The translations under genes and the position numbers were made by a program. Positions 31,610 through 48,303 of a DNA stretch of 64,000 nt are shown one piece after another. The notes below the pieces were generated by a model. It was not told where the DNA came from. It ran no database searches and saw nothing but the letters and a program-made list of their open reading frames with translations. The DNA is from an uncultured Eubacteriales bacterium. GTDB taxonomy: Bacteria; Bacillota; Clostridia; Lachnospirales; Lachnospiraceae. The first letter of the stretch is position 1; each line of letters starts with the position of its first letter. The stretch spans positions 62,001 to 126,000 of the forward strand of contig CASFID010000075.1 of the NCBI GenBank assembly GCA_949294665.1, in the 5' to 3' direction.

Positions 31610-32487
31610 GCAAAGGACTTAAGATGCCGCCGAAGGACTTACGGAAGCTGCAGATGATAGAACTGGAGATGATTCTGGAGGTAGACCGTATCTGCAGAAA
31701 GCATCAGATACGTTACTTTCTCAGCGAAGGAAGTCTGCTGGGAGCAGTACGACACGGGGGATTTATTCCATGGGACGATGATATAGATGTTTTTATGATG
31801 CGTGACGAATATGAGCGTTTCTTAAAAATTTGTAAGACCGATCTGAACAGAAAGAAGTTCTTCATGCAGACGTATGAAACGGATCCTGAATACCGATGGT
31901 TTTACGGTAAGCTTCGGAGAAAAGGGACAGAATTTCTTCGTGCCGGGCAGGAAGCGATCCGGTGTATGTCAGGAGTATCTATTGATATCTTTGTCATGGA
32001 TAATCAGCCTGATCACTATCTTACCTGGCTCTTTTTCACACTTCTAAGGCGTGGCTGTATTAAAACCCTCTGGTCTGTTGTGGGAGCTACGGAAGAAAGA
32101 ATAAAGTGGAAAAGATGCCTTTATCGTTTACTGCGCCATATCAACAAAAGGATTCCTCTTGGAATCATGAATGGTATGCAGAAGATTACGAACCTCCGGC
32201 AGACAAGGGAAGTGTGCTGTATCGGATTTTACAGAAAAAGTCCCTGGAGCCGTAAACGGAAAAAGGGGGAACCGCGGGGATACTGCCGCAGCTGGTTTTC
32301 AGATACGACGGAAATTGAGTTTGAAGGATTCCGGTTTCAGACATGTAAGGAATACAAAAAATATCTGCGCTGGGTATATGGCGACTATATGAAACTTCCG
32401 CCGGAAGAAGAGCGCTTTTCCCATGCACCGCGCAGATATCGACTGAACGTTGAGCCGGATCTGACAGGATCAGGGAGGACAGGATGA
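31606..32487 (+). CDS. LicD-family phosphotransferase
   Basis: This 293-aa LicD-type enzyme transfers a phospho-group from a CDP- or CMP-linked donor to a sugar hydroxyl (phosphocholine in Streptococcus and Haemophilus). The defining motifs are FLSEGSLLGAVRHGGFIPWD followed by DDIDVFM, at about residues 38-63. It is coupled to the PEP mutase gene by an ATGA overlap. This neighbourhood makes a phosphonate donor (CMP-hydroxyethyl- or aminoethylphosphonate) more likely than choline. No choline uptake or kinase gene is seen. Confidence 0.88.
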   Translation: MSKGLKMPPKDLRKLQMIELEMILEVDRICRKHQIRYFLSEGSLLGAVRHGGFIPWDDDIDVFMMRDEYERFLKICKTDLNRKKFFMQTYETDPEYRWFYGKLRRKGTEFLRAGQEAIRCMSGVSIDIFVMDNQPDHYLTWLFFTLLRRGCIKTLWSVVGATEERIKWKRCLYRLLRHINKRIPLGIMNGMQKITNLRQTREVCCIGFYRKSPWSRKRKKGEPRGYCRSWFSDTTEIEFEGFRFQTCKEYKKYLRWVYGDYMKLPPEEERFSHAPRRYRLNVEPDLTGSGRTG

Positions 32488-33761
32488 AAAAAGTATTTTT
32501 AAGTATAGGCGCCGATTTTATTCATGGCGGGCATATCGCGATCATAAAAAGAGCGGCGGAACTTGGAGAACTGACAGTCGGAGTTCTGACAGACGAAGCG
32601 ATCATGTCCTACAGACCATATCCGATCCTTTCTTTTGAGGAACGTACGGAGATCATAAGGAATATCGCAGGGGTTTCCCGTGTGATACCTAAGACCAGTG
32701 TCAGTTATGAAGAGATCATAAAGACAGAGCGCCCGGACATCGTTGTTCACGGAGACGGATGGAAAGGAAAAGTAAGAGAACATCTTGTGGAGCTTCTGGA
32801 TGAGTATGGCGGGGAGCTTGTGGAATTTCCCTATACGAATAAGACAGAATATCAGAGATATGAGCGGCACAGGGAAGCCATCCGTCATATGCCGGATATG
32901 AGACGCGGAATGCTCCGGAGACTTCTGGGAGAGCTCAGACGCCCGGTGCGCGTCATGGAAGCCCACAACGGGCTTACAGGTCTGATCGTCGAGAAAACAA
33001 GAATCGAGGTTGGAGATGAGGTCAGGATGTTTGACGCCATGTGGGTGTCCTCTCTCTGTGATTCTACCTCAAAAGGGAAGCCGGATATTGAGCTTGTGGA
33101 TATGACTTCCAGGATGAATACGATCAATGAGATCATAGAAGTTACGACAAAACCGATCATCCTGGATGCGGATACAGGCGGGCTGCCCGAACATTTTGAA
33201 TACAATGTCAGAACCATTGAAAGACTTGGAGTCTCGGCAGTCATCATCGAAGACAAGATGGGACTGAAAAAGAACTCTCTGTTTGGGAATGAAGTCCAGC
33301 AGCAGCAGGCTCCCATCGAAGATTTCTGTGAAAAGATCAGGGCAGGGAAACGTGCGCAGCAGACAAGAGAGTTTATGATCATAGCAAGGATCGAAAGCCT
33401 GATCCTTGAACAGGGGATGGACGATGCCATGAAAAGAGCGGACGCCTATGTAAAGGCGGGCGCGGACGGGATCATGATCCATTCAAGGAGCAGGACGCCC
33501 GATGAGGTGACAGAATTCTGCGGCAGATTCCGAGAGCTATATCCGGATATCCCCATTATAGTTGTTCCTACTACATATCATACGATCCGCGAGCCAGAGC
33601 TCTATCAGGCGGGGGCCAATATAGTGATCTATGCAAACCATCTGATACGGAGCGCGTTTCCGGCTATGAAAGAGACAGCCGAACTGATCCTTACGACACA
33701 GAGAGGAAAGGAAGCGGATGAGAAGTGTATGCCGATCAAAGAGATCTTAACTTTGATCTGA
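32484..33761 (+). CDS. pepM: Cytidylyltransferase-like/PEP mutase fusion
   Basis: This 425-aa two-domain protein has a cytidylyltransferase-like fold at residues 1 to about 135, with the HxGH motif at His14-His17 (HGGH). Residues from about 145 form phosphoenolpyruvate phosphomutase, which turns PEP into phosphonopyruvate, the entry step of nearly all phosphonates. The mutase-specific motif EDKMGLKKNSL starts at Glu256, and DADTGG lies at 228-233. The EDK..K.NS signature separates true mutases from isocitrate-lyase-like relatives. The matching decarboxylase is at 47185. It overlaps licD by 4 nt. Confidence 0.93.
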   Translation: MKKVFLSIGADFIHGGHIAIIKRAAELGELTVGVLTDEAIMSYRPYPILSFEERTEIIRNIAGVSRVIPKTSVSYEEIIKTERPDIVVHGDGWKGKVREHLVELLDEYGGELVEFPYTNKTEYQRYERHREAIRHMPDMRRGMLRRLLGELRRPVRVMEAHNGLTGLIVEKTRIEVGDEVRMFDAMWVSSLCDSTSKGKPDIELVDMTSRMNTINEIIEVTTKPIILDADTGGLPEHFEYNVRTIERLGVSAVIIEDKMGLKKNSLFGNEVQQQQAPIEDFCEKIRAGKRAQQTREFMIIARIESLILEQGMDDAMKRADAYVKAGADGIMIHSRSRTPDEVTEFCGRFRELYPDIPIIVVPTTYHTIREPELYQAGANIVIYANHLIRSAFPAMKETAELILTTQRGKEADEKCMPIKEILTLI

Positions 33762-33807
33762 GATGCAAAAGTGAACGGACATGCAGAAAGCGGTGAAGGG
33801 CTCAGGT

Positions 33808-34512
33808 ATGAAAGCACTGATTTTAAATTCCGGCATGGGGAGCAGGATGGGAAGTCTGACGGAAGACGCGCCCAAGTGTATGACGGAGATATCGGCCGGG
33901 GAGACCATTCTGAAAAGACAGCTTCTCCTTCTTACAGAAAGCGGGATCAGAGATGTAGTTATCACTACGGGGCGGCATAAGGATAAACTGACGGAATACT
34001 GCCGTTCTCTGGATCTTCCTGTCGATTATACGTTCGTCCATAATCCGGAATATAAAGATACAAATTATATCTATTCGATCTATCTGGCAAAGGATATGCT
34101 CAGGAATACAGACATTCTCCTGATGCATGGTGACCTGGTCTTTGATTTCAACGTCCTGTCAGGTATTATCCGGCAGGCACAGAGCAGTGTAGTCGTCAGT
34201 TCAGTCAGACCACTGCCGGAAAAAGATTTTAAAGCAGTTATAAAAGACGGGTACGTTCAGAAGATCGGTGTTGAATTTTTTGAAAACGCAGTGGCCGCCC
34301 AGGCGCTTTATCATCTTTATGCCAGAGACTGGGAGATCTGGCTGGAACGGATCGAAGCATACTGCCAGGACGGAAAGCGCAGCGTATATGCAGAAAACGC
34401 GTTAAACGAGGTGACGGCTGTGTGCCGCATCCGTCCGTTTGATGTAAAAGATGCGCTGTGCGATGAGATTGATACACCAGAAGACTTGAGGAAAATACAG
34501 GAAAGAGTTTAA
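33808..34512 (+). CDS. LicC/PntC-like cytidylyltransferase
   Basis: This 234-aa small nucleotidyltransferase has the N-terminal motif LNSGMGSRMGSLTEDAPKCM and the metal site LLMHGDLVFDF. It resembles the CTP:phosphocholine enzyme LicC and the cytidylyltransferase half of PntC, which activates aminoethylphosphonate in Treponema. Position after PEP mutase and near LicD supports CMP-phosphonate synthesis. GAAGGG serves ATG 33808; another ATG lies in frame at 33781. The real substrate (hydroxyethyl- or aminoethylphosphonate, or choline phosphate) is not decidable here. Confidence 0.78.
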   Translation: MKALILNSGMGSRMGSLTEDAPKCMTEISAGETILKRQLLLLTESGIRDVVITTGRHKDKLTEYCRSLDLPVDYTFVHNPEYKDTNYIYSIYLAKDMLRNTDILLMHGDLVFDFNVLSGIIRQAQSSVVVSSVRPLPEKDFKAVIKDGYVQKIGVEFFENAVAAQALYHLYARDWEIWLERIEAYCQDGKRSVYAENALNEVTAVCRIRPFDVKDALCDEIDTPEDLRKIQERV

Positions 34513-34527: not shown

Positions 34528-35577
34528 ATGGGATATTATGAAAAACTTATTAAACTTGATAAGGTTTATGAGGCGTTAAAAGACGATGAGTCAAAAGAAT
34601 TATTTCGCTTAAGAGTAGACTATATGATTACCCGGGACGCCGACGCCTTTCACCGGGGCAAAGATTTACTGTACAATGACTGGCGCTGCGATGAATTGGA
34701 AGAATTTATTCAGGATAAGAAGTTCAAAGGTTTTGTAATATGCGGACAGGGATATGACAGAGATACGTGTCGTTTACTGAAAATACTCGGGTATGAAGTC
34801 CTTTATCATTGCGATGTGCTCGGAAGGGAGAATGTGTCGGAAGATATACCCGCAGTCGGCGTTCAGGAACTGACGGAAGATTTCCATGGGTATATCTTTG
34901 TAATGGCTGAAAAGTTTGAAAGAGAAAAAGTTTACAGTACATTATTATCCGCAGGAATTTCTAAAGAATGTATTTTATTACCCCGCTGTAAGCGTTTGAT
35001 GGGAACAAGGGGAAAACAGTACTTTGACGTGTTTAGTCCCGTAGAAAACGAGATATTCGTCGATGCCGGAGCCTATGATGGAAGCACGACGCTCCAATTT
35101 GCAAAATGGACGAATAATCAATATAAAAAGGCTTATGTGCTGGAGCCGTTGAGCGACATGCGCAGTGCTATAGAGCAAAAAATAAAAGATGCTGATCTTC
35201 AGAATATATCCGTGCTGGAAAAAGCGGCCTGGAATAAAGAAGAAATTTTATATTTTAAAGAAAACGACAGTGGTTCTAAGATATCAAAAGACGGAGCGTT
35301 CGCCATAAACAGTGCGGATATTGACAGTATTACAGGAGACGAGGCCGTCACATTTATCAAAATGGATATCGAAGGCAGTGAATTAAAGGCGCTTGAAGGA
35401 GCGAAAGAGACAATTCTCAGAAATACCCCCAGGCTCGCCATATGTATTTACCATAAGCCGGAGGATATACTTGAAATACCGCTCTACTTATTGGAGTTGA
35501 TTCCGGAATATAAATTCTACATCAGACATTATTGTTCTAACATGTTTGAGACAGTGCTGTATGCGGTACGGCGATAA
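34528..35577 (+). CDS. FkbM-family methyltransferase
   Basis: This 349-aa protein's second half is an FkbM methyltransferase (SAM-binding FVDAGAYDGSTTLQFA, later FIKMDIEGSELKALEGAKET). The first half has an alpha/beta, Rossmann-like look (KGFVICGQGYDRDTCRLLKI) as in many polysaccharide FkbM proteins. It likely O-methylates a sugar of the glycan, or the phosphonate alcohol. Methylated phosphonates are known, but nothing here proves this target. Confidence 0.85.
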   Translation: MGYYEKLIKLDKVYEALKDDESKELFRLRVDYMITRDADAFHRGKDLLYNDWRCDELEEFIQDKKFKGFVICGQGYDRDTCRLLKILGYEVLYHCDVLGRENVSEDIPAVGVQELTEDFHGYIFVMAEKFEREKVYSTLLSAGISKECILLPRCKRLMGTRGKQYFDVFSPVENEIFVDAGAYDGSTTLQFAKWTNNQYKKAYVLEPLSDMRSAIEQKIKDADLQNISVLEKAAWNKEEILYFKENDSGSKISKDGAFAINSADIDSITGDEAVTFIKMDIEGSELKALEGAKETILRNTPRLAICIYHKPEDILEIPLYLLELIPEYKFYIRHYCSNMFETVLYAVRR

Positions 35578-35601
35578 GATATGAAAGAAGGAAAATCTGA
35601 G

Positions 35602-36732
35602 ATGAAAACATTGGTCACCCGGTCTTCCATGCCGCCTTTTGAAGAATACGTTGCAATGATAAAGCCGCTCTGGGAATCTGTCTGGCTTACAAATAACGGC
35701 GCTTTACATAAACAGTTTGAAGAAGAATTAAAGAACTATCTGGGAGTTACGGGACTTTCTCTGATGACAAACGGGCATATGGCTCTGGAGCTGGCTTTAC
35801 AGGCTCTGGGAGTAGCCGGCCCGGATGAGGACGGGGAAGTTATTACGACGCCTTTCACTTTCGCCTCCACTACACACGCTATTGTCCGTAACCGTCTGAA
35901 ACCGGTATTCTGCGATATCCGTCGTGACAATTATACGATTGATGCATCAAAAATAGAGAATCTTATTACCAGGAAAACAAAAGCAATTCTTGCGGTTCAT
36001 GTATATGGATCTCCATGTGACGTATATAAAATAGAAGAAATTGCTCAAAAATATAATCTGAAAGTGATCTATGACGCGGCGCATGCTTTTGGCGTTCGGA
36101 TAAAATGCGGGACAAAGGAATCAGGTATTGCACAGTTTGGAGACGCGTCCATGCTTAGTTTTCACGCCACAAAAGTCTTTCACACAATTGAAGGAGGCGC
36201 TGTGGCCTTTTCAGATACTCAGACAGGGGATAAGCTTTATCGGTTGAAGAATTTCGGAATTATGTCAGAGACAGAAGTTGATTATGTAGGGGCAAATGCA
36301 AAGATGGATGAGTTTCGTGCGGCTATGGGACTCTGCAATTTACAATATATTGACCGGGAAATTAAAAAGAGAAAGGCAAAAACAGAAAGATATCGGATGA
36401 ATCTTAAAGAAGTAAAAGGTATCACTCTGCTTCCCGAACAGAAAGGAGTAATCCCCAATTACGCATACTTTCCTGTTTTAATTGAGGATGATTTTCCTGC
36501 CACAAGAGATGAAATTTATGCAGAATTAAAGGACAGAAACATATTTGCAAGACGCTATTTTTATCCGTTGACAACCAGATACTCCTGTTATAAAGGGAAA
36601 TTTGACAGCTTTCCAACACCGGTAGCAGAGGAAATCGCAAGAAAGGTTCTCTGTCTGCCGCTGTTTGCCGATCTGTCAGGAGAGACGATAGATACCGTTT
36701 GTAAAATTGTGGACGCCAGGAGGTTTCAATGA
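35602..36732 (+). CDS. DegT/DnrJ-type sugar aminotransferase
   Basis: This 376-aa PLP enzyme has TNNGALHKQFEEELKNYLG, the VIYDAAHAFGV segment and the cofactor Lys in SFHATKVFHTIEGGA. It should transaminate a nucleotide-linked keto-sugar. The only keto-sugar made in the window is dTDP-4-keto-6-deoxyglucose from rfbA/rfbB, giving a 4-amino-4,6-dideoxy sugar such as viosamine. A phosphonoacetaldehyde transaminase role is less likely because those belong to another PLP group. AAGGA before ATG 35602 fixes the start over ATG 35581. Confidence 0.88.
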   Translation: MKTLVTRSSMPPFEEYVAMIKPLWESVWLTNNGALHKQFEEELKNYLGVTGLSLMTNGHMALELALQALGVAGPDEDGEVITTPFTFASTTHAIVRNRLKPVFCDIRRDNYTIDASKIENLITRKTKAILAVHVYGSPCDVYKIEEIAQKYNLKVIYDAAHAFGVRIKCGTKESGIAQFGDASMLSFHATKVFHTIEGGAVAFSDTQTGDKLYRLKNFGIMSETEVDYVGANAKMDEFRAAMGLCNLQYIDREIKKRKAKTERYRMNLKEVKGITLLPEQKGVIPNYAYFPVLIEDDFPATRDEIYAELKDRNIFARRYFYPLTTRYSCYKGKFDSFPTPVAEEIARKVLCLPLFADLSGETIDTVCKIVDARRFQ

Positions 36733-37811
36733 TCAGTGTAGTTGTATTTTTCTATAATGGTGAACAGTTTGTCGAGCAATGTATGGCAAACATTGTAAAT
36801 CAGACGATCGGTATTGAAAATATAGAGGTTGTGGCCGTTGACGACGCATCGACAGACTCCACCGCGCAGCAGTTGGAAATCTGGGAAGAAAAATATCCCG
36901 GGAAGATAAAAGTGATACGAAAAAAGATAAACTCACAAAAAGCAAAAGATTCTAACCGGTTGTGCGGCATAGAGGCGGCAACCGGGGACTATATTCTATT
37001 TCTGGATCAAGATGATTATTATGAACCCGATGCATTTGAGATTTTGGCCGGACTGATCAAGGAGCATCCCGATCTCGACTATATCGAATATTCGTTCAAT
37101 TACACCGATCTCGACGGCAACGTGTTTTATGAACAGAGGATGTCGGAACCGGGATTTCACATATATACAATTGACACGGAAGAGGAAAGAATCGCATATA
37201 CGCAGAAAAATATCCTTCCGGGGGCAACGTTTACCTGGACAAAAATATACAGGAAAAATTTTTTGACAGAGAACAGAATACGAGACAATGCCGGGGATGA
37301 AAAGACAAAATTTACAGATAATTATTTCTCCGGATTACTGGCCCTTTATTGTAAAAGAATAGGGAAATATAACAAACCTCTGTACAATTACAGGAACTAT
37401 ATAGGAAGTGATTCTCACTCTTCCCATAAAAATGACGAAAAACAGTTTGAAAGATGTAAAGTGGCGATAGCTTTCCAAAATGAATGTATACGGCGCGGGA
37501 TTATGAAAGATCAGTTCATTATGATTGAATATTTGTTTGCAAGGGCTTTTCTGATGAAGACGTTCTGGCGTTTTCTCTTCCTGTTCGATCCCATACCTTA
37601 TGAAAAACTCAGATATATTCAGAATTATATATTCAAAGAATATCCGAATATAAAAGAAAACCCGATTATGAAGAATATTCCGTGGTTTCAGGAGTTGTTT
37701 CAATTTCTGGACAAACCCTGGACAGATGAGTGTATAAATCAGATTTATAAGTCAAAAAAGCAAAAGTACGAGGAGAAAGGAACTTCTTTTAATATCTTTC
37801 TTGGAAGATAA
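36729..37811 (+). CDS. Family 2 glycosyltransferase
   Basis: This 360-aa GT-A enzyme has the opening MISVVVFFYNGEQFVEQCM, VAVDDASTDSTAQ and the metal motif ILFLDQDDYYEP. The C-terminal part is helical with many aromatic residues. Its start overlaps the aminotransferase stop (ATGA), so it may transfer the amino-sugar made by that enzyme. Confidence 0.87.
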   Translation: MISVVVFFYNGEQFVEQCMANIVNQTIGIENIEVVAVDDASTDSTAQQLEIWEEKYPGKIKVIRKKINSQKAKDSNRLCGIEAATGDYILFLDQDDYYEPDAFEILAGLIKEHPDLDYIEYSFNYTDLDGNVFYEQRMSEPGFHIYTIDTEEERIAYTQKNILPGATFTWTKIYRKNFLTENRIRDNAGDEKTKFTDNYFSGLLALYCKRIGKYNKPLYNYRNYIGSDSHSSHKNDEKQFERCKVAIAFQNECIRRGIMKDQFIMIEYLFARAFLMKTFWRFLFLFDPIPYEKLRYIQNYIFKEYPNIKENPIMKNIPWFQELFQFLDKPWTDECINQIYKSKKQKYEEKGTSFNIFLGR

Positions 37812-37824
37812 TGTATTGGGAAAT

Positions 37825-40134
37825 ATGGAAAAGAACACAGAATATTTTGAAGATATGAAATCATTTCTTCATACGATAAAAAAAGAAAAGCATAAGCTGT
37901 TTGTTGTATGCAGGCAGTCCTTTCTGCGGATGGAATCGGGGAAAAACATAGAACGGGCAAATCTGAAACCTGTATATTTTCATGATTTTTCGCCGAATCC
38001 GACGTACGAATCTGTAAAAGCGGGGGTAGACAGATTCAGAAAAAACGGATGTGAAGCAATCCTGGCTATTGGGGGCGGAAGCGCGATAGATGTGGCAAAA
38101 GCGGTAAAAGCCTTTGCCGCAATGAAAGAGACTGCAAACTATCTGGATCAGGAAATATCAGACAATGGTATTCCGCTGTACGCCGTACCTACAACAGCAG
38201 GAAGCGGAAGCGAGGCGACAAAGTTTGCAGTTATTTATTATCATGGGAAAAAGCAGTCGCTTACTCATCCGTCTCTGATTCCTGAGAAAGTGCTGTTGGA
38301 GCCGTCGGTATTAAAGAGTCTTCCTCTTTATCAGCGCAAAGCTACTATGATGGATGCATTGTGCCATGCAGTTGAAGCGTTCTGGTCCGTGAATTCCACA
38401 CAGGAGAGCCGGGAATATTCCCGGGACGCTCTCGCTGCAGTTATGAAAAACAGGACGGCCTATCTGGAGAATACTGACGATGGAAATCGAGGAATGCTGT
38501 ACGCCGCAAATATGGCAGGCAGAGCTATCAATATTGCACAGACGACAGCCGCGCATGCAATGAGCTATCAATTAACCTCCCGGTATCATCTGCTTCATGG
38601 GAATGCGGTGGCAATCTGTCTTCCATATCTTTGGATGTTTATGCTGGATCACCCGGAACGCTGCTCGGACGCTCGCGGCCAGAAGTATCTCGCAGGGATT
38701 TTCTCTGATATCGCCCGGGCTTTAGGCTGTCGGACGCCCCGGGAAGCAGCCTGTATGCTCTGGACATGGATCAGAGAGTTGAATCTGGAAATTCCCGTCG
38801 TACCGGAAAACGAGATTAAAGATCTGGCGGTATGTGTGAATCCTGACAGACTGAAAAACAATCCGGCTATACTGAAGCAGACGGACATAGAGATAATCTA
38901 CCGTCAGCTATTTAAGGAGGAGGGGATCGATATTACTACACAGATATGTCAGAAGAAACTTTTGATACTGGGGGGGGCGAATGCCCAGACTCCTGCGATT
39001 ATCAGAGCTAAGGAACTTGGATATTATGTAATAACATGCGATTATCTTCCAGATAATCCGGGACATAGATTTTCTGATAAATATGTCAACATCAGTACCA
39101 TTGAAAAAGAAAAAGTATTAAAGCTGGCGGAAAAGGAGAACATTCAGGGAATTATCGCATATGCTTCCGATCCCTCGGCTATGACGGCGGCGTATGTAAG
39201 TGATAAAATGAATTTGCCGGGCCCTTCTTATTCATCTGTCAGATTATTAAGCGAGAAAGATTTGTTTCGGGAATTTCAACGAAAATACGGATTTTACATC
39301 CCTGATTTCTTCAGCTTTGATAATCTGGAACAATTGCAAAAAGAAATCGAAAATATAAAATTCCCCTGTATGGTCAAACCTGTTGACTCTTCGGGAAGCA
39401 AGGGCATCACCAGAGTATGCAGAAAGGAAGAACTGCTGTCTGCTCTGGAACTGGCTTTGGAGTACAGTCGCCGTAAAAGAGTTATTGTCGAAGAATTTAT
39501 CGAATCTCCTTATCATCAACTACATGGAGATGGAATCGTATATAACGGAAAGCTGATATTTCTTGCTCTTGGAGATCAGCGTTTCTGGCATTCTGTTCCG
39601 ATCGGGAGTTCTTTACCTTCTTCAATTGCAGAAGAACTTATGACTGAGGCAAAGAGTGAAGTCGCCAGACTCATTGAGTGCAGCGGCTACCGTATGGGAG
39701 GGATCAATGTAGAGGTAAGAATAACAAAAGACGGTAAGATCTGTATTGTGGAAATCGGCCCCAGGACAGGGGGGAATTATATCCCTCAGCTGATGGAACT
39801 GGCTACCGGAGAAGATGAGATGACTTCCGTACTCAAAATGGCTATGGGAGATTTTCGCCGGTCAGATATTACGCCGCATATATCATATTGCTTTCAATAT
39901 ATTATTGGCAGCTATAAAAAAGGAAAATTCAAAACTATTTTTGTGGACGATTATATTAAACCTAAGCTTGTTAAGTTATATGTGCACAAAAAAGAAGGAG
40001 AATATATAGACGAATATGAAAACAGCAGCGGAGTCGCAGGAGTCGCACTTCTGAAGTTTGACGGGCTGGAAGAAATGGAAAAAGATATAAAAAATATCAG
40101 GGAACATATAACTGTTCTGACAGAAGAGGTATAG
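37825..40134 (+). CDS. Iron alcohol dehydrogenase/ATP-grasp fusion
   Basis: This 769-aa protein fuses two enzymes. Residues to about 360 are an iron-containing alcohol dehydrogenase with GGGSAIDVAKA, PTTAGSGSEATKFA and metal ligands Asp177, His181, His244 and His258. Members of this family (PhpC type) reduce phosphonoacetaldehyde to 2-hydroxyethylphosphonate. Residues from about 375 are an ATP-grasp ligase (PreATP part LLILGGANAQTPAI, then FPCMVKPVDSSGSKGITRVC and KICIVEIGPRTGGNYIPQ). A ligase that joins a carboxylic acid to an amine or alcohol is expected. A G8 tract (38970-38977) lies at the domain junction. The start is uncertain: in-frame TTG codons at 37801 and 37816 are alternatives. 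Confidence 0.85.
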   Translation: MEKNTEYFEDMKSFLHTIKKEKHKLFVVCRQSFLRMESGKNIERANLKPVYFHDFSPNPTYESVKAGVDRFRKNGCEAILAIGGGSAIDVAKAVKAFAAMKETANYLDQEISDNGIPLYAVPTTAGSGSEATKFAVIYYHGKKQSLTHPSLIPEKVLLEPSVLKSLPLYQRKATMMDALCHAVEAFWSVNSTQESREYSRDALAAVMKNRTAYLENTDDGNRGMLYAANMAGRAINIAQTTAAHAMSYQLTSRYHLLHGNAVAICLPYLWMFMLDHPERCSDARGQKYLAGIFSDIARALGCRTPREAACMLWTWIRELNLEIPVVPENEIKDLAVCVNPDRLKNNPAILKQTDIEIIYRQLFKEEGIDITTQICQKKLLILGGANAQTPAIIRAKELGYYVITCDYLPDNPGHRFSDKYVNISTIEKEKVLKLAEKENIQGIIAYASDPSAMTAAYVSDKMNLPGPSYSSVRLLSEKDLFREFQRKYGFYIPDFFSFDNLEQLQKEIENIKFPCMVKPVDSSGSKGITRVCRKEELLSALELALEYSRRKRVIVEEFIESPYHQLHGDGIVYNGKLIFLALGDQRFWHSVPIGSSLPSSIAEELMTEAKSEVARLIECSGYRMGGINVEVRITKDGKICIVEIGPRTGGNYIPQLMELATGEDEMTSVLKMAMGDFRRSDITPHISYCFQYIIGSYKKGKFKTIFVDDYIKPKLVKLYVHKKEGEYIDEYENSSGVAGVALLKFDGLEEMEKDIKNIREHITVLTEEV

Positions 40135-41360: not shown

Positions 41361-42182
41361 ATGAATAAAGTAGTATACATGGGATATTCAGACTCTATGA
41401 TAAGATGTCTGCTGGATTCGGATTTATTTGATTTGATCATGGTCATTGGAAAAGAAGGACGAATGAACAAAAATCAATATCAAATGATAGAAGAAAATCA
41501 TATTCCATATTATGAACTTATAAATAAAGAAGAACTGGAAAAAATAAAATTTCCTAATGAAGAGTTTACTGTAATCCTGCGCAAATTTGAATATATTATT
41601 CCGCAGTCGATGATAAAAAAATTCAGGTTTATTAATTTTCACGGCGGAAGCTTAAAATACAACAGAGGAGCACATGCGCCGGTATGGTCGATTCTGAATC
41701 GGGATAAGGCCTCGTGTCTGTCAATGTATGAGCTGACGGGCGGCGTTGACGAAGGAATATTGATCGACGAATATCCTGTAGAAATCACAGAAGAGGACGA
41801 CATAAACACATTGAATGTGAAATTAGAATCAGGTATTCCGAAATTACTGGTATCTCTTGACAGTTACTTAAGTGGAAATATAAAAGGAATTTCTGTAAAA
41901 AATGGGATTTATCATCCCAAAATTCAGGAAAAAGATTTTACTATTGATATTGAGAATGACAGTGTGAAAGTAATTTCTGCAAAGATCCGGTCGCAACGTA
42001 ATTATTATGGCGCCTTAATACTGGAAAATGGACTGCGCTACAGAGTGGAAGACTTTACCCTTTTTCCCAGTACGGGATACAAGCGGCGTTTTTTTGACGG
42101 GGAAATACTTATTGTAGATGATGGGCAGGAATTTATCAGATGTAATGTACGAAGCGAGAAAATATTCGGGGGGGAGAAATAA
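41361..42182 (+). CDS. Sugar N-formyltransferase-like protein
   Basis: This 273-aa formyltransferase-fold protein has the catalytic set Asn-x-His...Asp, seen as FINFHGGSLKYNRGAHAPVW and ELTGGVDEGILID. It is related to methionyl-tRNA formyltransferase but is more like the dTDP-amino-sugar N-formyltransferases (VioF/FdtF type), which use N10-formyl-tetrahydrofolate. It fits downstream of the aminotransferase at 35602. A G7 tract (42168-42174) lies just before the stop codon. Confidence 0.82.
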   Translation: MNKVVYMGYSDSMIRCLLDSDLFDLIMVIGKEGRMNKNQYQMIEENHIPYYELINKEELEKIKFPNEEFTVILRKFEYIIPQSMIKKFRFINFHGGSLKYNRGAHAPVWSILNRDKASCLSMYELTGGVDEGILIDEYPVEITEEDDINTLNVKLESGIPKLLVSLDSYLSGNIKGISVKNGIYHPKIQEKDFTIDIENDSVKVISAKIRSQRNYYGALILENGLRYRVEDFTLFPSTGYKRRFFDGEILIVDDGQEFIRCNVRSEKIFGGEK

Positions 42183-42193
42183 ATCTCTTTCCA

Positions 42194-42682
42194 ATGTTCC
42201 GGAAAGGTATGACCATTGAACCGAAAAGAAAAACAAAAGAAGTGCGTAAATTACTTTATGAATTTCGCCCCAGCCTGTTTCACTCTCTGATTTCAGACAA
42301 TAAAGTAGAAGAAATGGCAGACAAATATTCTGAAAAAGCTGTTATTCTTCTTTTACGTATGCATGAAATTAATGCGGGAATTATCGTTATGTATGCGAAT
42401 GATATAAGATTAAAAAAAGCATTTGTTTCTATAATTACTGTAAAAAAGGAATTCAGAAAAAAGGCGCTGGGAACAGTCCTTCTAAAACGGGCTGAGAACA
42501 TTGCGTATATGTGGGGGATGGAATATATGGATCTTGAAGTTGACAAAGCGAATGACGTGGCCATTGATTTTTATTTAAGAAACGGATACGTCAAGAGTGA
42601 AGAACTTGACGCATCTTTTATCATGCAGAAAGAATTGTGCGGAAATATTAATATGTATACAGACCGACAAGAGTGGCTCTAA
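42194..42682 (+). CDS. GNAT-family acetyltransferase (1)
   Basis: This 162-aa GNAT N-acetyltransferase has the acetyl-CoA site TVKKEFRKKALGTVLLKRAE and the last motif VAIDFYLRNGYVKSEELD. It is probably part of amino-sugar acylation. The start is not certain, since neither ATG 42194 nor ATG 42209 has a well-spaced ribosome site. Confidence 0.8.
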   Translation: MFRKGMTIEPKRKTKEVRKLLYEFRPSLFHSLISDNKVEEMADKYSEKAVILLLRMHEINAGIIVMYANDIRLKKAFVSIITVKKEFRKKALGTVLLKRAENIAYMWGMEYMDLEVDKANDVAIDFYLRNGYVKSEELDASFIMQKELCGNINMYTDRQEWL

Positions 42683-42714
42683 ACGTACGTAATATTATTA
42701 AGGGGGACAGAAGA

Positions 42715-44025
42715 ATGAAAATATTAGTTACAGGATTATGTACACTGCACTGGGGACGACTGGAATATGGAAATATTGGAAATTACTATATTATAGAGCC
42801 TTTGTTCCGTGAACTTCACCGTGTCTTTCCGGACTCCGAGATCAATACGACTTTTCAAATGACAGAAGGGTTTGCCAAAAGAGAAAATATAACGGTTCTG
42901 CCCATGGAACTATACTATGCATGGCAGGAAAACGATATTGAAAACGCTCAAAAAGATTATGCTGCAGCTAAGGAACTGATTGCAGATCCACATTCCCATG
43001 CTGCAACTCCTTATACGGATCTTCTGAAGGAGACGTCTGTCGTAATTAATATGTCGGGGGACATGTGGGGAGATAACGCCGAGCATGTAGGACACGGACG
43101 ATTTTTTGTTGATTTGCTTAAGATGCGTACAGCTCAGCTCCTTGGGGTGAAGACGGTTCTCTTTGGCGTAACTCCGGGTCCATTTTCTGATTCAAAAACA
43201 ATGGATCTGGCAAAAGAAGTATATGAAAATTTTGATTTAATCATAAACAGGGAGCCTACTTCAACAAAAAACCTGAATAAATGGGGATTTCATTCTGCAC
43301 ACGTAAAGGATTTCGCCTGTCCTGCATTTTTATATACTCCTGAGCTGACCGAAGTACAATCGGCAGAGGCAGAGTCGGTTATCTCATCCCTGCAGGGAGA
43401 GAAAAAGGTAGTTGGCTTTACAATAGGCGGATTCAATATGCCGGTCGGTCCATATGATATGTGGCCCCGGGAAGACAGCCAGTATAAAGTATTTGCAGAG
43501 ATAATCGAGTATATGATGAATAACCTTAATGTAAAAGTGGCGCTTATTTCACATACAAATGGTTTTGAACTGCCTCCACAGTTTAAGCTGATACCCGGCA
43601 GAGATTATCCTATTTTAGACCAACTGAGAAAGGTAGTGCTCAAAAGGGGAATTGTCAAGAATCCGGAAGATTTAGTCTGTATTTCCACACCGCATCTTCC
43701 GTGCGTTACAAAAACGATCATCGGCCATTTTGACATGATGGTAACCGGGCGTGTACATGCGTCGGTTGCGGCTGTCAGTCAGTTCGTTCCTACAGTTTTT
43801 CTCACATATGAGGAAAGCTTTATACCGAGTTCTAAAATGTACGGCTTCGCCAATTTGGCAGGCATGGGAGAATTTGTGTGCCGTCCGTCCGACGGGGATG
43901 AAATTAAACGTAAGATACATGAAGTATTTTCGAGACTTCCAGAGATAAAAAGCCGCTTACAGAGCCGTATTCCGGAGGTACAAAAGCTTTCTGCCGCTGC
44001 ATTTGACGAGCTTAAAAATATATAG
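42715..44025 (+). CDS. Polysaccharide pyruvyl transferase-like protein
   Basis: This 436-aa member of the pyruvyl transferase (WcaK/CsaB) family has TLHWGRLEYGNIGNYYII, VVINMSGDMWGDNAEHVGHG and MMVTGRVHASVAAVSQFVPT. It would move a pyruvate ketal from PEP to a sugar, adding negative charge. AAGGGGGA stands 8 nt before ATG 42715, chosen over an in-frame start at 42673 that overlaps the acetyltransferase gene. Confidence 0.8.
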   Translation: MKILVTGLCTLHWGRLEYGNIGNYYIIEPLFRELHRVFPDSEINTTFQMTEGFAKRENITVLPMELYYAWQENDIENAQKDYAAAKELIADPHSHAATPYTDLLKETSVVINMSGDMWGDNAEHVGHGRFFVDLLKMRTAQLLGVKTVLFGVTPGPFSDSKTMDLAKEVYENFDLIINREPTSTKNLNKWGFHSAHVKDFACPAFLYTPELTEVQSAEAESVISSLQGEKKVVGFTIGGFNMPVGPYDMWPREDSQYKVFAEIIEYMMNNLNVKVALISHTNGFELPPQFKLIPGRDYPILDQLRKVVLKRGIVKNPEDLVCISTPHLPCVTKTIIGHFDMMVTGRVHASVAAVSQFVPTVFLTYEESFIPSSKMYGFANLAGMGEFVCRPSDGDEIKRKIHEVFSRLPEIKSRLQSRIPEVQKLSAAAFDELKNI

Positions 44026-44057
44026 ACAGTAAATTTTAAAGAAGGAGAATGAATTTT

Positions 44058-44765
44058 ATGAAAGTTGCGATTATGCAACCGTATTTTTTCCCTTATATAG
44101 GATATTTTTCTTTAGTCAAGCATGTCGACCGTTTTGTTTTACTGGATGACGTACAGTTTATTCGTCATGGCTGGATTGAAAGAAACAGGATTCTGAAACC
44201 GTCCGGAGGATGGCAGTACATTTCTGTTCCTCTTATAAAGCACAGTCAGAAAGTTCCCATTAAAGATATCCGGATCAATAACGATACTGCATGGGGGAAA
44301 AAGCTTATCGCTCAGATAGGACATTACCGGAAAGCGCCTTATTACTATAAAGTGAAATCTTTGTTAGAAAAAATACTGGAGCGGACTTTTTATGATATCA
44401 CTTCTCTGGACCGCGTTTGCCTGGAAAACATATGCGGGTATTTACATATACATACTCCTATAGATTTGTTTTCAGAAATGGGACTTTCGATTCCATATCC
44501 GAAAGCGCCGGATGAATGGGCGCTGAATATTTGCCGTGAGATGGGCGGCGTAACTGAATACAGGAATCTGCCGAGAGGAACGGCTCTGTTTTCTGAGGAA
44601 AAGTTTCTTAACGCAGAGATTAAACTACGCTTTCAGGAAACTGCTATTTCAGAATATCCCCAACTTGGAAATGTGTTTGAGCCCGGATTGTCAATCCTTG
44701 ATGTAATGATGTTTAATTCCGTAGAAGAAATAAACCAGATGCTGGACAGGTACATGTTATTATGA
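44058..44765 (+). CDS. WbqC-family protein
   Basis: This 235-aa protein has the hallmark start MKVAIMQPYFFPYIGYFSLV, then DVQFIRHGWIERNRILKP and GNVFEPGLSILDVMMFNS. WbqC proteins occur in O-antigen and flagellin-glycan clusters that make acylated 4-amino-4,6-dideoxy sugars and are thought to attach the acyl or amino-acid group, but the mechanism is little known. GAAGGAG is well spaced to ATG 44058 and too close to ATG 44049. The stop overlaps the next start. Confidence 0.85.
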   Translation: MKVAIMQPYFFPYIGYFSLVKHVDRFVLLDDVQFIRHGWIERNRILKPSGGWQYISVPLIKHSQKVPIKDIRINNDTAWGKKLIAQIGHYRKAPYYYKVKSLLEKILERTFYDITSLDRVCLENICGYLHIHTPIDLFSEMGLSIPYPKAPDEWALNICREMGGVTEYRNLPRGTALFSEEKFLNAEIKLRFQETAISEYPQLGNVFEPGLSILDVMMFNSVEEINQMLDRYMLL

Positions 44766-45208
44766 ATGAGATAAAAACAGAGCATATAATACCGCCGTCA
44801 GATACAATCAGGCTGTTTACTTTTTTAAAAGAATCAGATAGTATATTTCAGCCGAAATTATCTGAAAGAGTAAATATTAAACAATACTCCGAAAAGCTGG
44901 CAGAGCGTGCTGAATTATTTTATGTATTGGACGGCGGAAAGGACATCGCCAACTGTGCTGTTTATATGAATCGAGATGACATATGCTTTATATCATCTTT
45001 TGCCGTGGCTCAAAATATGCAAAGAAACGGAATTGGAACAAGATTAATGAGGGCCGTGATCAGTGAGGGGATAAAAAGGAACAAGAGCTCAATTGAATTA
45101 GACGTTTACGCCTGCAATCAGGCGGGGATACGTTTTTATCTTTCTCAGGGATTTCAGAAGAAAGCAGAAAAGGAGAAATGGTTGAGAATGTCTCTTGACT
45201 TAAAATAA
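44762..45208 (+). CDS. GNAT-family acetyltransferase (2)
   Basis: This 148-aa GNAT protein has the acetyl-CoA motif FAVAQNMQRNGIGTRLMRAV and the end motif AGIRFYLSQGFQKKAE. It is translationally coupled to the WbqC gene (ATGA), so the two probably act on the same sugar. Confidence 0.82.
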   Translation: MNEIKTEHIIPPSDTIRLFTFLKESDSIFQPKLSERVNIKQYSEKLAERAELFYVLDGGKDIANCAVYMNRDDICFISSFAVAQNMQRNGIGTRLMRAVISEGIKRNKSSIELDVYACNQAGIRFYLSQGFQKKAEKEKWLRMSLDLK

Positions 45209-45267
45209 AACAATATGCCCCAATTGTAAATAATGCAGTCTCAACAAATCAGGAAGGAAAAAATACT

Positions 45268-46074
45268 ATGAATGCAGAAATCAATTTAGCCAGAACAACA
45301 TTTTGTATAACGCAGCGCTGTACGCTGAAGTGCAAATTGTGCCTGGCTTTTATCCCCTATTATAAAAACCCCGTGGATGTAAAGACGGGAGAGGCTGATG
45401 CGGTTCTCAGGGAGTATTTTGAGCTGATTCATTCGGTAAGTGTATTTACCATAACAGGAGGAGAACCTCTAATGCATAAGGAACTGTCGTCCATTTTGGA
45501 ACTTGTGTACAGCTATTTACCGCAGATTAGAAAGAGCGTAGATTTTGTGACAAACGGTACGCTCGATATACCGGAACATGTACTGGATATTTTTGAGGAG
45601 AACAGAGCGCATACAAGAATTGTACTTAGTGATTACGGCCCTTCTCTCTCTACTAAAATAAAGCAAATTGAAGAAAAATTAAAGAAAAGAAATATTTCGT
45701 ACAGAATATCAAATTTTCATGGCGATAATCTGTATTTTGACGGGTGGATTGATTTCAGGGATCATTCAAAAAAATATTTTTCTCTTGAAGAACGCGACAG
45801 GCACGGTCAGAAATGCATTCACAATGTAGGCAAATATTTTTTGATTAACGAGGGGGAGCTGCACTCTTGTTCTCGCTCTTATTGGCGAATGCGCGAAGGA
45901 TATATACCCAGAAATGAGGAGGAATATATTCCTTTGTTAGATACACACATGCCCAAGGAAAGGAAGCAGGAGATATTACTACATATGCTGAATCAGAAAA
46001 GCAGCTCATCGTGTGCATAGTGTGTCGGATTAAAAAATGGGGTGCCAAGGCACTATCCAGCGGAACAACTTTAA
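45268..46074 (+). pseudogene. Radical SAM protein interrupted by an amber codon
   Basis: This gene encodes a radical SAM enzyme with the 4Fe-4S motif Cys18-x3-Cys22-x2-Cys25 (CTLKCKLC) and the SAM-binding TITGGEPLMHKE. The open frame stops at TAG (46018-46020) after 250 codons. The same frame goes on for 17 codons to TAA (46072-46074) and reads CVGLKNGVPRHYPAEQL, completing a C-x2-C motif (Cys-Ala-amber-Cys) that looks like an auxiliary cluster end. The simplest reading is a nonsense mutation of a Tyr or Trp codon. Read-through is possible. Its target in the glycan locus is unknown. Confidence 0.72.
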
Positions 46075-46178
46075 AATTTTCCGCAATGGCGGATGACGGT
46101 TATGACCTTTACCGGCTCCGTGTTCTGTAAACCGATCAGCTTTTTTAGGTATTGATCTCTTCTTTTATGTTCATGTTA

Positions 46179-46221
46179 TTCTATCATGGTACCCCCTTCT
46201 GTCACTCCTACCATGGTAGAA
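46179..46221. repeat. Imperfect 13-bp inverted repeat
   Basis: TTCTATCATGGTA (46179-46191) and TACCATGGTAGAA (46209-46221) are complementary at 12 of 13 positions with a 17-nt loop. It lies between the radical SAM gene and the toxin-antitoxin remnant. It may be an operator for the antitoxin or a terminator without a good T run. The rest of the stretch from 46075 to 46366 holds nothing I can name. Confidence 0.55.
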
Positions 46222-46366
46222 AAATAAGAAATAATCAAGTTTGTGCTGTTCAAAGCAGAAAATTTTTGTCCACAATATCATATCTTTCTAGGGCAGAATA
46301 TTGCTTGCAATCGCTTGTGTTTGCAAAGGAAGATGGATATAATATAGCGAAAGGATCGTGATAAAT

Positions 46367-46600
46367 ATGGCAAATACATCCGCAGTTTATGCCCGTATTG
46401 ATACGGAGCTAAAAGAAAACGCAGAAGGAATCCTTTCATTTGAACTACGCCTGCTTTCCACAAAACCTACCGCAGCCGGCGGCATAAGCCGTGAACAGTT
46501 GGACGCAGAGCTTATGAAAGGCGTGGAGTCCATGAAATCCGGAAAAACCTATACGGCAGATGAGGTGGATGCCAAGTTAAAACGGGAGTTCGGTATATGA
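46367..46600 (+). pseudogene. RelB/DinJ antitoxin with internal deletion
   Basis: This 77-codon frame has the start of a RelB/DinJ antitoxin (SAVYARIDTELKENAEGILS) and its normal end (REQLDAELMKGVESMKSGKT, then YTADEVDAKLKREFGI). Between them it jumps from GILS to FELRLLSTKP. Family members carry about 25-30 residues there (the LGI..S.AI.M...Q.....G.P stretch) that complete the ribbon-helix-helix DNA-binding domain. An in-frame deletion is the simplest explanation. The product probably cannot bind its operator. The stop overlaps the toxin start (ATGA). Confidence 0.75.
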
Positions 46601-46822
46601 GCGATACCTATTCTGTTATCTACTCCCCAAAAGCCAAAGATGATCTGAGGGAGATTTATTCTTACATCGTCTATGATCTGCAGACAGCGGAGGAGCAGGT
46701 AAATCGTATCCGGAAAGAAATCCGGTCGCTGGATTTTATGCCATCCCGGTATGCTATCTGTGATCCGAATTATCTACGCCGACAGGGATGTCGAGGACAT
46801 CATTCAGGCAGAACGTGAATAG
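46597..46822 (+). pseudogene. RelE-type toxin, internally deleted and frameshifted
   Basis: The frame begins as a RelE/ParE toxin (SDTYSVIYSPKAKDDLREIY, then IRKEIRSLDFMPSRYA) but is open for only 73 codons and ends out of frame. From 46760 another frame reads VIRIIYADRDVEDIIQAERE and stops at TAG 46820-46822, which is the normal toxin C-terminus. About 40 codons between RYA and VIR are missing. The toxin must be inactive. With the antitoxin deletion just upstream, the pair is a decayed cassette. Confidence 0.8.
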
Positions 46823-47184
46823 CCCGCAAAAAGTAACAGCAGCGTCGCCAATATTATTTAGATAATGACTAAAAATAAAAATCGAAAAGAACTGACTATA
46901 GTAAAAAGAATAGCCAGTTCTAACAGGCAGGAGTTCCCGACGGATTAGTTTTTCTATATCAGGAGGAACTCCTCCTTTTATTGAAAGAAAGTGACGACAA
47001 ATGTGAACGGCCCGTCGACAAAATATATTGTTGAAATAGAAAGTGTAGAGTTAAAATGTATAGAATATTACGAGATAGGGTACTTGTACTTCTTATTCTG
47101 TTGATATAAAATATAGATGGCAAAATCTGTGACATAAGCAAAACACGGTTTACTTATCAGGATTTATTTACAGGAGATCAAGAT
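46823..47184 (+). promoter_or_regulatory. Structured leader upstream of phosphonopyruvate decarboxylase
   Basis: No gene is present in these 362 nt, but three stems can be drawn. A: AGAACTG (46888-46894) with CAGTTCT (46915-46921), extended by CTAT/ATAG. B: AGGAGTTCC (46929-46937) with GGAACTCCT (46965-46973). C: AGGAGG (46961-46966) with CCTCCT (46971-46976), followed by TTTTATT. B and C exclude each other, as in an attenuator. A plain terminator for the toxin-antitoxin remnant, or an old element end, are alternatives. Confidence 0.45.
46961..46982 (+). terminator. Candidate intrinsic terminator
   Basis: AGGAGG and CCTCCT form a 6-bp stem with the loop AACT, followed directly by TTTTATT. 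It lies about 200 nt before the phosphonopyruvate decarboxylase gene and could end the transcript from the glycan operon or toxin-antitoxin remnant. Confidence 0.5.
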
Positions 47185-48303
47185 ATGGATGTTAAAAGCT
47201 TTGTGAAAATTTTAGGAGCAAAATTTTATACCGGAGTTCCGGACTCTCTTCTGAGACCTTTGTGCGATTACCTGATGAATACATACGGGATTTCTGAAAA
47301 TCATATTGTGGCTGCAAATGAAGGGAACTGTACCGCGCTGGCAGCAGGACATTACCTTGCCACGGGAGAAGTTCCGCTTGTCTATATGCAGAACAGCGGC
47401 CTTGGAAACATGCTCAATCCTGCGGTTTCTCTACTGCACAAAAAAGTATATGCTATTCCCTGTATTTTTGTAGTGGGGTGGCGAGGAGAACCGGGAGTAC
47501 ATGACGAGCCTCAGCACATATATCAGGGGGAGGTCACGGTAAAACTTCTGGAGGACATGGGGATCAGATCTTTTATCATTTCCGTTGATACGACAGAAAA
47601 TGAACTGGAAGAAATGATGGAAGCGTCAAAACCTTTTCTGGCTGATGGAAACAGTGTGGCCTTTGTGGTCCGTAAAGGCGCTCTGACTTATGAAGATAAA
47701 CTGCATTATAAGAATCCCTACCCGATGACAAGAGAATCCATCATCGAGTGTATCACAGAAGTTTCAGGAAATGACATTATCATTTCGACGACAGGAAAAG
47801 CCAGCAGAGAGCTTTTTGAGATCAGGGAACATAAAGATCAGGGACATGGGAGAGATTTCCTGACTGTAGGCTCTATGGGGCACAGCAGTTCCATCGCACT
47901 TGGAGTCGCCCTTGCGAAACCCGAGAAAAAAATATGGTGCATAGACGGAGACGGCGCGACTCTGATGCATATGGGGGCAATGGCTGTTATCGGAAGTCGG
48001 AAACCTTCCAACCTGATCCATATTGTCATCAATAATGAGGCGCATGAGACAGTGGGAGGAATCCCGACAGTTGCAAAGTCGGCAGCGCTCGCGGATATCG
48101 CGGCGGCATGCGGATACCCCAGAACGGAAACAGTAACGGAAAAAGAGGAACTCGAAAAAGCGCTGCACAGTGCAAGAGAAAACGGCGAACTGACCTTTAT
48201 TGAAGTGAAAGCGGCGATCGGGGCCAGATCCGATCTTGGCAGGCCCACCACAACGACAGAGGAAAACCGGCGGAGCTTTATGGAATATATACGGGAGAAT
48301 TGA
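47185..48303 (+). CDS. ppd: Phosphonopyruvate decarboxylase
   Basis: This 372-aa thiamin-diphosphate enzyme (AepY/Ppd/Fom2 type) turns phosphonopyruvate into phosphonoacetaldehyde and so pulls the unfavourable PEP mutase reaction forward. The catalytic Glu46 lies in AANEGNCTALAAGHYLATG. The cofactor motif is Gly255-Asp-Gly (DGDGATLMHMGAM), ending in Asn283-Asn284 (IVINNEAHE). The length is as in the family. It is the second dedicated phosphonate gene in the window but lies 13 kb from pepM with its own upstream region, at the 3' edge of the plus-strand glycan locus. Confidence 0.93.
   Translation: MDVKSFVKILGAKFYTGVPDSLLRPLCDYLMNTYGISENHIVAANEGNCTALAAGHYLATGEVPLVYMQNSGLGNMLNPAVSLLHKKVYAIPCIFVVGWRGEPGVHDEPQHIYQGEVTVKLLEDMGIRSFIISVDTTENELEEMMEASKPFLADGNSVAFVVRKGALTYEDKLHYKNPYPMTRESIIECITEVSGNDIIISTTGKASRELFEIREHKDQGHGRDFLTVGSMGHSSSIALGVALAKPEKKIWCIDGDGATLMHMGAMAVIGSRKPSNLIHIVINNEAHETVGGIPTVAKSAALADIAAACGYPRTETVTEKEELEKALHSARENGELTFIEVKAAIGARSDLGRPTTTTEENRRSFMEYIREN

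Follow-up and report, generated by a model that had tools for sequence, protein, structure and literature searches.

A flagellin locus with a probable phosphonate pathway of its own in an uncultured Lachnospiraceae bacterium

We analysed a stretch of 64,000 nucleotides (the window) from an uncultured Eubacteriales bacterium of the Lachnospiraceae (assembly GCA_949294665.1, contig CASFID010000075.1, positions 62,001 to 126,000 of the forward strand), in which a flagellin gene is followed by genes for glycosyltransferases and for phosphonate biosynthesis. The genes and their order recur in relatives, and the window probably holds a flagellin glycan locus with its own phosphonate synthesis: 2-hydroxyethylphosphonate (HEP) would be made, activated with cytidine triphosphate (CTP) and put on the flagellin glycan in the cytoplasm. 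Coordinates are positions in the window unless a contig (C), locus (L) or genome (G) label is given. Families were called by comparing Pfam and NCBIfam (TIGR) profile scores with the curated cut-offs, which are 319.55 bits for phosphoenolpyruvate (PEP) mutase (TIGR02320) and 312.5 bits for phosphonopyruvate decarboxylase (TIGR03297).

The unit starts with the flagellin gene fliC1 (26226..27077; PF00669 157.9 bits, PF00700 103.2 bits), followed on the same, plus strand by two GT2 glycosyltransferases with TPR, gtTPR1 (27205..28548) and gtTPR2 (28594..29967; PF00535 and TPR in both), a TagF-like candidate transferase, gpT (29984..31609), a LicD phosphotransferase (31606..32487), a PEP mutase (32484..33761) and a LicC/PntC-like nucleotidyltransferase (33781..34512; PF12804 and PF00483). 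From gtTPR1 through a radical SAM gene, 17 genes lie on the same strand with intergenic gaps of −11 to 59 bases, and 4-base overlaps join gpT to LicD and LicD to PEP mutase. A preliminary description of this DNA had the locus begin at 32484, right behind flagellin; the linkage holds, but the unit begins at flagellin itself, and LicD falls just outside the start given there.

The PEP mutase (425 amino acids) scores 410.4 bits against TIGR02320 and carries the motif EDKMGLKKNS, which has the form EDKxxxxxNS, with its glutamate at position 256, in agreement with the EDK..K.NS motif and Glu256 of the preliminary description; the residues that we take to form the active site are kept in an alignment with the mussel PEP mutase. 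Fused to its N-terminus, and not mentioned in that description, is a PF01467 cytidylyltransferase domain (51.1 bits), whose best solved relative is the 160-residue chain 5x3d (121.7 bits), deposited as phosphoenolpyruvate phosphomutase and presumably the cytidylyltransferase domain of Fom1. The phosphonopyruvate decarboxylase (Ppd; 47185..48303, plus strand), likewise predicted earlier, scores 466 bits against TIGR03297 and is the sole decarboxylase over the cut-off in the genome sequence searched. The LicC-like protein has as its best solved relative the CTP:phosphocholine cytidylyltransferase 1jyk (51 bits over 107 residues), and LicD scores 139.9 bits against PF04991 (cut-off 22.6), with an LLGAVRHxGxIPWDDD-type motif kept in 4 aligned LicD proteins, so that this pair, too, is present as had been described. 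The candidate phosphonoacetaldehyde reductase is an iron alcohol dehydrogenase (Fe-ADH) fused to an ATP-grasp domain (37801..40134, plus strand; PF00465 124.2 bits, PF13535 42.7 bits), the dehydrogenase occupying residues 1-370 and ATP-grasp about 380-777 of the 777-residue protein. In a survey of 57 PEP mutase locus rows (three places are counted twice, as L070/L097, L090/L098 and L037/L038), such a dehydrogenase lies near PEP mutase in 15. Its pairing with ATP-grasp varies: ATP-grasp is a separate gene beside LicD in the flagellin unit of genome G139, and locus L070 has a stand-alone dehydrogenase and a second dehydrogenase fragment. The functions of the dehydrogenase and the LicC-like protein are candidate ones, assigned from resemblance and context rather than by a curated cut-off. 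Since a dehydrogenase is present and no class-V aminotransferase was found among the operon genes scanned (the whole genome was not searched for an aminoethylphosphonate transaminase), the predicted product is HEP rather than 2-aminoethylphosphonate (AEP).

On these assignments, PEP mutase would convert PEP to phosphonopyruvate, Ppd would convert this to phosphonoacetaldehyde, and the iron dehydrogenase would reduce the latter to HEP. HEP and CTP would then give CMP-HEP (cytidine monophosphate-linked HEP), in a reaction catalysed either by the LicC-like enzyme or by the Fom1-type domain at the N-terminus of PEP mutase. The TPR-glycosyltransferases would put a sugar on flagellin in the cytoplasm, before export, and LicD or gpT would move the phosphonate from CMP-HEP onto that sugar, by the same logic as in the type A flagellin glycan of Clostridioides difficile but with a carbon-phosphorus (C-P) compound as donor. 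The substrates, the HEP product, the acting transferase, the attachment and flagellin as the target are what we infer from gene content and neighbourhood. HEP synthesis, activation with CTP and attachment to a glycan, possibly that of the flagellar filament, had been proposed in the preliminary description, and they are supported as the best reading by a second unit, in which a distant PEP mutase follows a copy of the flagellin module, and by the linkage in relatives.

The second PEP mutase of the genome lies 9.6 kb past the window (C75:135554-136372; TIGR02320 336.6 bits, motif EDKKFPKTNS), in a unit that faces the first, with NeuB and NeuC (both over cut-off) in between. Its order is flagellin2, gtTPR1, gtTPR2, gpT, PEP mutase/NTP-transferase, metallophosphoesterase, epimerase, NTP-transferase, saccharopine-dehydrogenase-like protein, LicD, MptE-like protein, Polysacc_synt_2 and LegC. 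Between the two units, identity is 86% for flagellin (over 187 residues), 72% for gtTPR1, 85% for gtTPR2 and 69% for gpT, compared to 37% for the PEP mutase domains. The fusion partners also differ, an N-terminal PF01467 domain in the first and a C-terminal PF12804 domain in the second, and a tree of 58 sequences separates the two PEP mutases, grouping the second type with that of genus member G338 only. Because the module genes are 69-86% identical and the PEP mutases 37%, the fusion partners differ and the tree splits the two enzymes, we read the units as two separate recruitments of PEP mutase to one flagellin module. In this reading, phosphonyl tailoring was joined to flagellin glycosylation, and the same flagellin module acquired it on at least two occasions. 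Flagellin2 looks broken in this genome: its Flagellin_N match begins only at position 68 of 139, and by eye the adjacent frame resembles a tyrosine recombinase. In the second-type unit of G338, flagellin matches Flagellin_N in full. As flagellin matches start at 68 in flagellin2 (L003:15434-16756) and at 67 in G334:C31:1102, flagellin may be an insertion site of integrative elements. No Ppd was found within the second unit of the window genome, and a decarboxylase-like gene in the second-type unit of G338 (L106:15941-16996) scores 254 bits, under the cut-off of 312.5.

The linkage of PEP mutase to flagellin was counted in samples of 58 genomes for the genus and 299 for the family, both with the window genome included, and of 398 for the phylum. 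Presence of flagellin was scored as a PF00669 match, which FlgL also gives and which is therefore counted as flagellin both in the presence counts and in the null expectation. In the genus, 4 of 58 genomes have a PEP mutase over the cut-off and 11 have flagellin, the 4 with PEP mutase all having flagellin as well (hypergeometric p = 0.0008); when the window genome is left out, 3 of 3 PEP mutase genomes have flagellin (p = 0.004). A flagellin no more than 7.5 kb from PEP mutase is present in 3 of the 4 (0.06 expected), and in 2 of 3 without the window genome, with expectations from random gene placement, a null that flatters any glycan gene cluster and is applied here to related genomes that are not independent. 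Locus L070, from a Mediterraneibacter metagenome-assembled genome (MAG), has a PEP mutase 92% identical to that of the window and shares its coordinates with genus member G343; it repeats the order from flagellin to LicC, followed by a stand-alone dehydrogenase without the ATP-grasp part.

Further, independent cases were found. The clearest is G139, from another genus, in which 14 consecutive genes on the same strand run from two flagellins through a 103-amino-acid gene, an MptE-like gene, PseB, PseC, a second MptE-like gene, a weakly NeuA-like gene, PseI, ATP-grasp and LicD to PEP mutase, dehydrogenase and Ppd. PseB (539 bits vs. 407.75), PseC (483 vs. 423.5) and PseI (447 vs. 340.25) are all over their cut-offs; the MptE-like protein scores 145 bits against PF01973, a family to which we take the Maf proteins to belong as well, and 116 bits against the PseD flagellin-modification model, far below the cut-off of 670. 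In G157, flagellin, MptE-like protein, PseB, PseC, PseI, a sulfatase-family protein, a class-V aminotransferase, PEP mutase, a weakly LicC-like protein and Ppd occur with two opposite-strand genes between them, and by its genes this would be the AEP version. In G177, PEP mutase is accompanied by two flagellins, LicD and a cassette like that of the second unit (metallophosphoesterase, epimerase and reductase-like genes). The genera of G177 (2 genomes) and G139 (3 genomes) yielded no PEP mutase over the cut-off beyond those already known. A flagellin 8 kb from PEP mutase in a Defluviitaleaceae genome (L090) is given little weight because cell-wall enzymes lie between the two.

Glycosylation of flagellin is cytoplasmic and requires no flippase; a capsule requires one. 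Among the 37 genes of at least 120 amino acids between 22 and 64 kb of the window, a simple hydropathy count found no flippase- or polymerase-like gene in the first unit, the symporter being the only gene with at least two hydrophobic stretches; such genes number 0 of 14 at L003, 0 of 17 at L070 and 1 of 19 at the G338 locus L106, where the polytopic gene is at least 12 kb from PEP mutase. In the family set, a polytopic gene lies within 8 kb of PEP mutase at 2 of 9 flagellin-near loci (the two units of the window genome, L070, G338 and the family genomes G177, G139, G157, G135 and G188) vs. 21 of 26 others (Fisher p = 0.003), with a threshold of five transmembrane segments (TM) that was fixed before the family result but after the hydropathy of the window was known. 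The 2 are the symporter and a 172-amino-acid gene without a Pfam match. Some of the loci are truncated at contig ends. At an 8-TM threshold, added after the data had been seen, the counts are 0 of 9 vs. 12 of 26. Nine polytopic genes checked from the other loci comprise three Polysacc_synt, one MatE, one Wzy_C, an acyltransferase, an ABC-type permease, a weak TgpA_N match and one without a match. A clean split, with flagellin loci lacking flippases and others having them, was weakened as a candidate rule: it holds in the family set, but in a second, named set 10 of 19 loci that are not flagellin-near have a polytopic gene, and G334, where PEP mutase is not beside flagellin, has none among 8 genes.

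Several observations weigh against a flagellin-directed phosphonate pathway. Within the unit, a terminator-like hairpin on the plus strand (27091..27121, a 14-pair stem followed by a T run) separates flagellin from the rest, in a region with 11 terminator-like sites vs. 7.0 expected, and Ppd is detached, 1164 bases behind the last operon gene. The dehydrogenase, which had been described as of the phosphonoacetaldehyde-reductase type, is an Fe-ADH by PF00465 but falls below the model of the phosphonate Fe-ADH PsrA (TIGR03405, 141.9 bits vs. a cut-off of 423.7), so the reduction of phosphonoacetaldehyde rests on context. Likewise, gpT misses the TagF cut-off (PF04464, 21.5 vs. 22.1 bits); it is conserved among 7 aligned members, a profile search against the PDB sequences gave no match up to an E value of 1, and an AlphaFold model of two gpT sequences was set aside at a mean pLDDT (predicted local distance difference test) of 34. 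In relatives, the core of flagellin, two glycosyltransferases and gpT also occurs in G331 and G320 (L110 and L111) with no PEP mutase match there, from which it follows that gpT need not handle a phosphonate; the Ppd of the L070 genome lies 26 kb further on, on the opposite strand; and in G334, PEP mutase and the flagellins are on different, partly short contigs. In the second, named set the membrane-gene contrast is weaker (0 of 2 vs. 10 of 19).

The same holds for the wider samples. In the family, 31 of 299 genomes have a PEP mutase over the cut-off, and the association is mild, with PF00669 in 22 of these 31 vs. 134 of the 268 others (one-sided p = 0.02); only 6 of the 22 have the two genes no more than 20 kb apart, in two of them with flagellin on the opposite strand (G135 and G188). 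Without the window genome, the 20-kb count is 5 of 21 (0.85 expected, p = 0.0012, under random placement), and within 7.5 kb it is 1 of 21, which is no clear excess (p = 0.29). In the phylum, 16 of 398 genomes are over the cut-off, 14 of them new, and PF00669 is present in 12 of the 14; outside the family, 1 of these 12, G715, has the two genes inside that 20-kb range, 13 kb apart. Given the counts of 5 of 21 and 1 of 12, the linkage of PEP mutase to flagellin is a feature of some lineages, a minority pattern in family and phylum, and not general. The comparison of gene neighbourhoods that the preliminary description had suggested shows recurrence in the genus, at L070 and in G139.

The likeliest alternative is a phosphonoglycan locus for a surface polysaccharide or teichoic acid that merely sits beside flagellin, with LicD and the nucleotidyltransferases decorating a cell-wall polymer. 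LicD proteins are known to decorate cell walls and teichoic acids, polysaccharide loci often contain pyruvyltransferase, FkbM and WbqC genes, 25 of the 31 family genomes with PEP mutase have no flagellin within 20 kb of it, and many of the flagellin-distant loci include polytopic genes, among them some that resemble flippases or polymerases. Yet genes of the latter kind are missing from the 37 genes of the window counted by hydropathy and from the 14 at L003, PEP mutase was apparently recruited twice behind the same flagellin module, and G139 joins the pathway with MptE/Maf-like proteins and pseudaminic acid, and we regard a cell-wall target as unlikely.

Less probable by a good margin is a diffusible phosphonate natural product, for example an amino acid conjugate that the ATP-grasp ligase would form and the symporter would import or export. 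The ATP-grasp-dehydrogenase fusion and the formyltransferase, GNAT, radical SAM and symporter genes would fit such a product, whereas the cytidylyltransferases and LicD point to attachment, and L070 keeps the genes from flagellin to dehydrogenase with a dehydrogenase that lacks ATP-grasp and with no symporter, formyltransferase or radical SAM homologue in the 10 kb downstream. It is more improbable still that the locus is a decaying mosaic, whose cassette is unexpressed or functionally incomplete: the detached Ppd, the possible mobile remnants seen by eye before it, the late-starting Flagellin_N match of flagellin2 beside an integrase-like frame and the lack of Ppd in the second unit would agree with decay, but the frames of the first unit are open, its catalytic motifs are kept and another genome repeats its gene order from flagellin through the dehydrogenase.

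A phosphonate-bearing flagellar glycan is already on record. In C. difficile, AEP on N-acetylglucosamine (GlcNAc) was reported in 2022 for the type A flagellin glycan and, in the part of that report available to us, C. difficile is negative for PepM in a survey and the source of the phosphonate is left open (PMC8861647). The mass shift given there for AEP is 107.01 Da; HEP bound as an ester would add C2H5O3P, about 108.0 Da. According to the portion consulted of another paper, a glycosyltransferase puts GlcNAc on FliC, a LicC-like enzyme makes a cytidine diphosphate (CDP)-linked donor and a TagF-like enzyme transfers the phospho-group, with CD0242 proposed as the LicC-like cytidylyltransferase and CD0244 as the TagF-like transferase (PMC10714395). 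As far as these excerpts go, glycosyltransferase, LicC-like and TagF-like parts near flagellin are alike in kind in the window and in C. difficile (PMC8861647, PMC10714395, PMC4441256), a likeness by description and not gene by gene with CD0240-CD0244; the window differs in having a complete pathway in the flagellin locus and HEP as its predicted product, compared to an organism with AEP that was reported as PepM-negative. The novelty that the preliminary description had seen in a flagellin-linked phosphonate therefore falls to the 2022 report. What is new is a dedicated phosphonate biosynthetic locus at flagellin, recruited more than once. Among the literature matches listed, judged by title and the start of the abstract, no paper was found that places PEP mutase or a phosphonate pathway at a flagellin locus, most subscription journals being outside the scope of the search.

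Phosphonyl tailoring (Pnt) gene clusters with PntC, as presented in the sections consulted of PMC6697681, contain fusions of PEP mutase (Ppm) to a nucleotidyltransferase (PF01467 or PF12804) and LicC-like and LicD-like proteins, with a proposed transfer of CMP-phosphonate to glycans. The window unit shares the fusion, the LicC-like enzyme and LicD; that paper concerns AEP and cell-surface glycans, and a word search of its main text does not return 'flagell'. The same sections state that Fom1 makes CMP-HEP and has its cytidylyltransferase domain at the N-terminus of PEP mutase (PMC6697681), the arrangement found here, but the Fom1 (fosfomycin) pathway leads to a small antibiotic. An AEP-bearing capsular polysaccharide of Bacteroides fragilis and proposed phosphonylated glycoproteins of Prochlorococcus appear in the excerpts available (PMC6697681, PMC8931226); the Prochlorococcus cluster, as described there, includes PglC and Wzx, a lipid carrier route, whereas the flagellin units studied here showed no flippase-like gene. 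The window also encodes LicD and glycosyltransferases, which are not known to belong to the fosfomycin pathway.

The remaining genes of the first operon, all on the plus strand, encode an FkbM-type methyltransferase (34528..35577; PF05050, TIGR01444 70.6 bits), a DegT-family sugar aminotransferase, by family not an AEP transaminase (35581..36732; PF01041 314.6 bits), a GT2 glycosyltransferase (36729..37811; PF00535), a symporter of the sodium:dicarboxylate/glutamate type (40137..41333; PF00375 401.4 bits) and a run of tailoring proteins identified by Pfam (41361..46020: formyltransferase, GNAT, polysaccharide pyruvyltransferase, WbqC-like, GNAT, radical SAM). Between the radical SAM gene and Ppd (46020-47185), remnants resembling a RelB/RelE-type pair and mobile DNA can be made out by eye. 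Behind Ppd (48506-53235) lie tandem proteins with a long, undescribed N-terminal part followed by a citrate-lyase-ligase-type cytidylyltransferase domain, with homologues at L070 and in its genome. Nonulosonic-acid type genes on the minus strand (53226..63585; NeuA/PseF-like, NeuC, NeuB and NeuD-like; TIGR03569 484.1 vs. 399.65 and TIGR03568 471.6 vs. 235.9) separate the first unit from the second flagellin unit, which lies past the window. Unexpected among these sugar genes are a 3-hydroxyacyl-CoA dehydrogenase and a thiolase in split pieces at 60310-62915. Flagellin is preceded in the window by flagellar genes, namely FlhA, a sigma factor, a rod/hook protein of FlgE/F/G type, FliD, FliS, FlgK, a flagellin-like FlgL and FliW, some of these names being our own from the Pfam match. 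A pattern scan found a sigma-28-like −10 element, GCCGATAT, upstream of flagellin (25982-25989), a weak pattern with 8 occurrences in the window vs. a mean of 3.9 expected, 3 of 100 shuffles reaching 8; a sigma-70 promoter scan was uninformative (6 sites vs. 10.1 expected).

Elsewhere in the survey, a cassette adjacent to PEP mutase recurs that consists of a YfcE-like metallophosphoesterase, a GalE-like epimerase, an NTP-transferase and a saccharopine-dehydrogenase-like reductase without an NCBIfam match (L003:4445-10390, L106, L035, L053, L064, L074-L076, L078 and L083). Reductase and phosphoesterase occur together in 9 of the 57 locus rows, in none of which the iron dehydrogenase is present, and the cassette may make a phosphonate not yet described. 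A single-contig genome has two facing PEP mutase-dehydrogenase-Ppd units 11 kb apart (L054, G046:C1:255001-275000). Two Methanobrevibacter MAG contigs (L071 and L072) carry a PEP mutase 59% identical to that of the window, with Ppd and LicC-like genes, reflecting either archaeal phosphonate surface chemistry or a binning error.

A broader proposal, which we put forward tentatively, is that gut Clostridia decorate their flagella with phosphonates in a modular way: flagellar glycan operons (with two glycosyltransferases and a TagF-like protein, or with Maf-like proteins and pseudaminic acid) may several times have captured different PEP mutase pathways, leading to HEP, to AEP and, with the metallophosphoesterase/epimerase/saccharopine-reductase-like cassette, to a third product, and such bacteria could also be the source of the phosphonate on C. 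difficile flagellin. By gene count, phosphonates are common on bacterial surfaces, and few of their targets are known; a phosphonate pathway in a flagellin locus would offer a defined and easily purified target protein. Flagellin is one of the main ligands that the immune system of the gut recognises, and if it carried a C-P group, which resists phosphatases, its recognition, its stability or the binding of phages could be altered. The finding also bears on the origin of AEP on C. difficile flagellin, which the part of the 2022 report considered here leaves open (PMC8861647).

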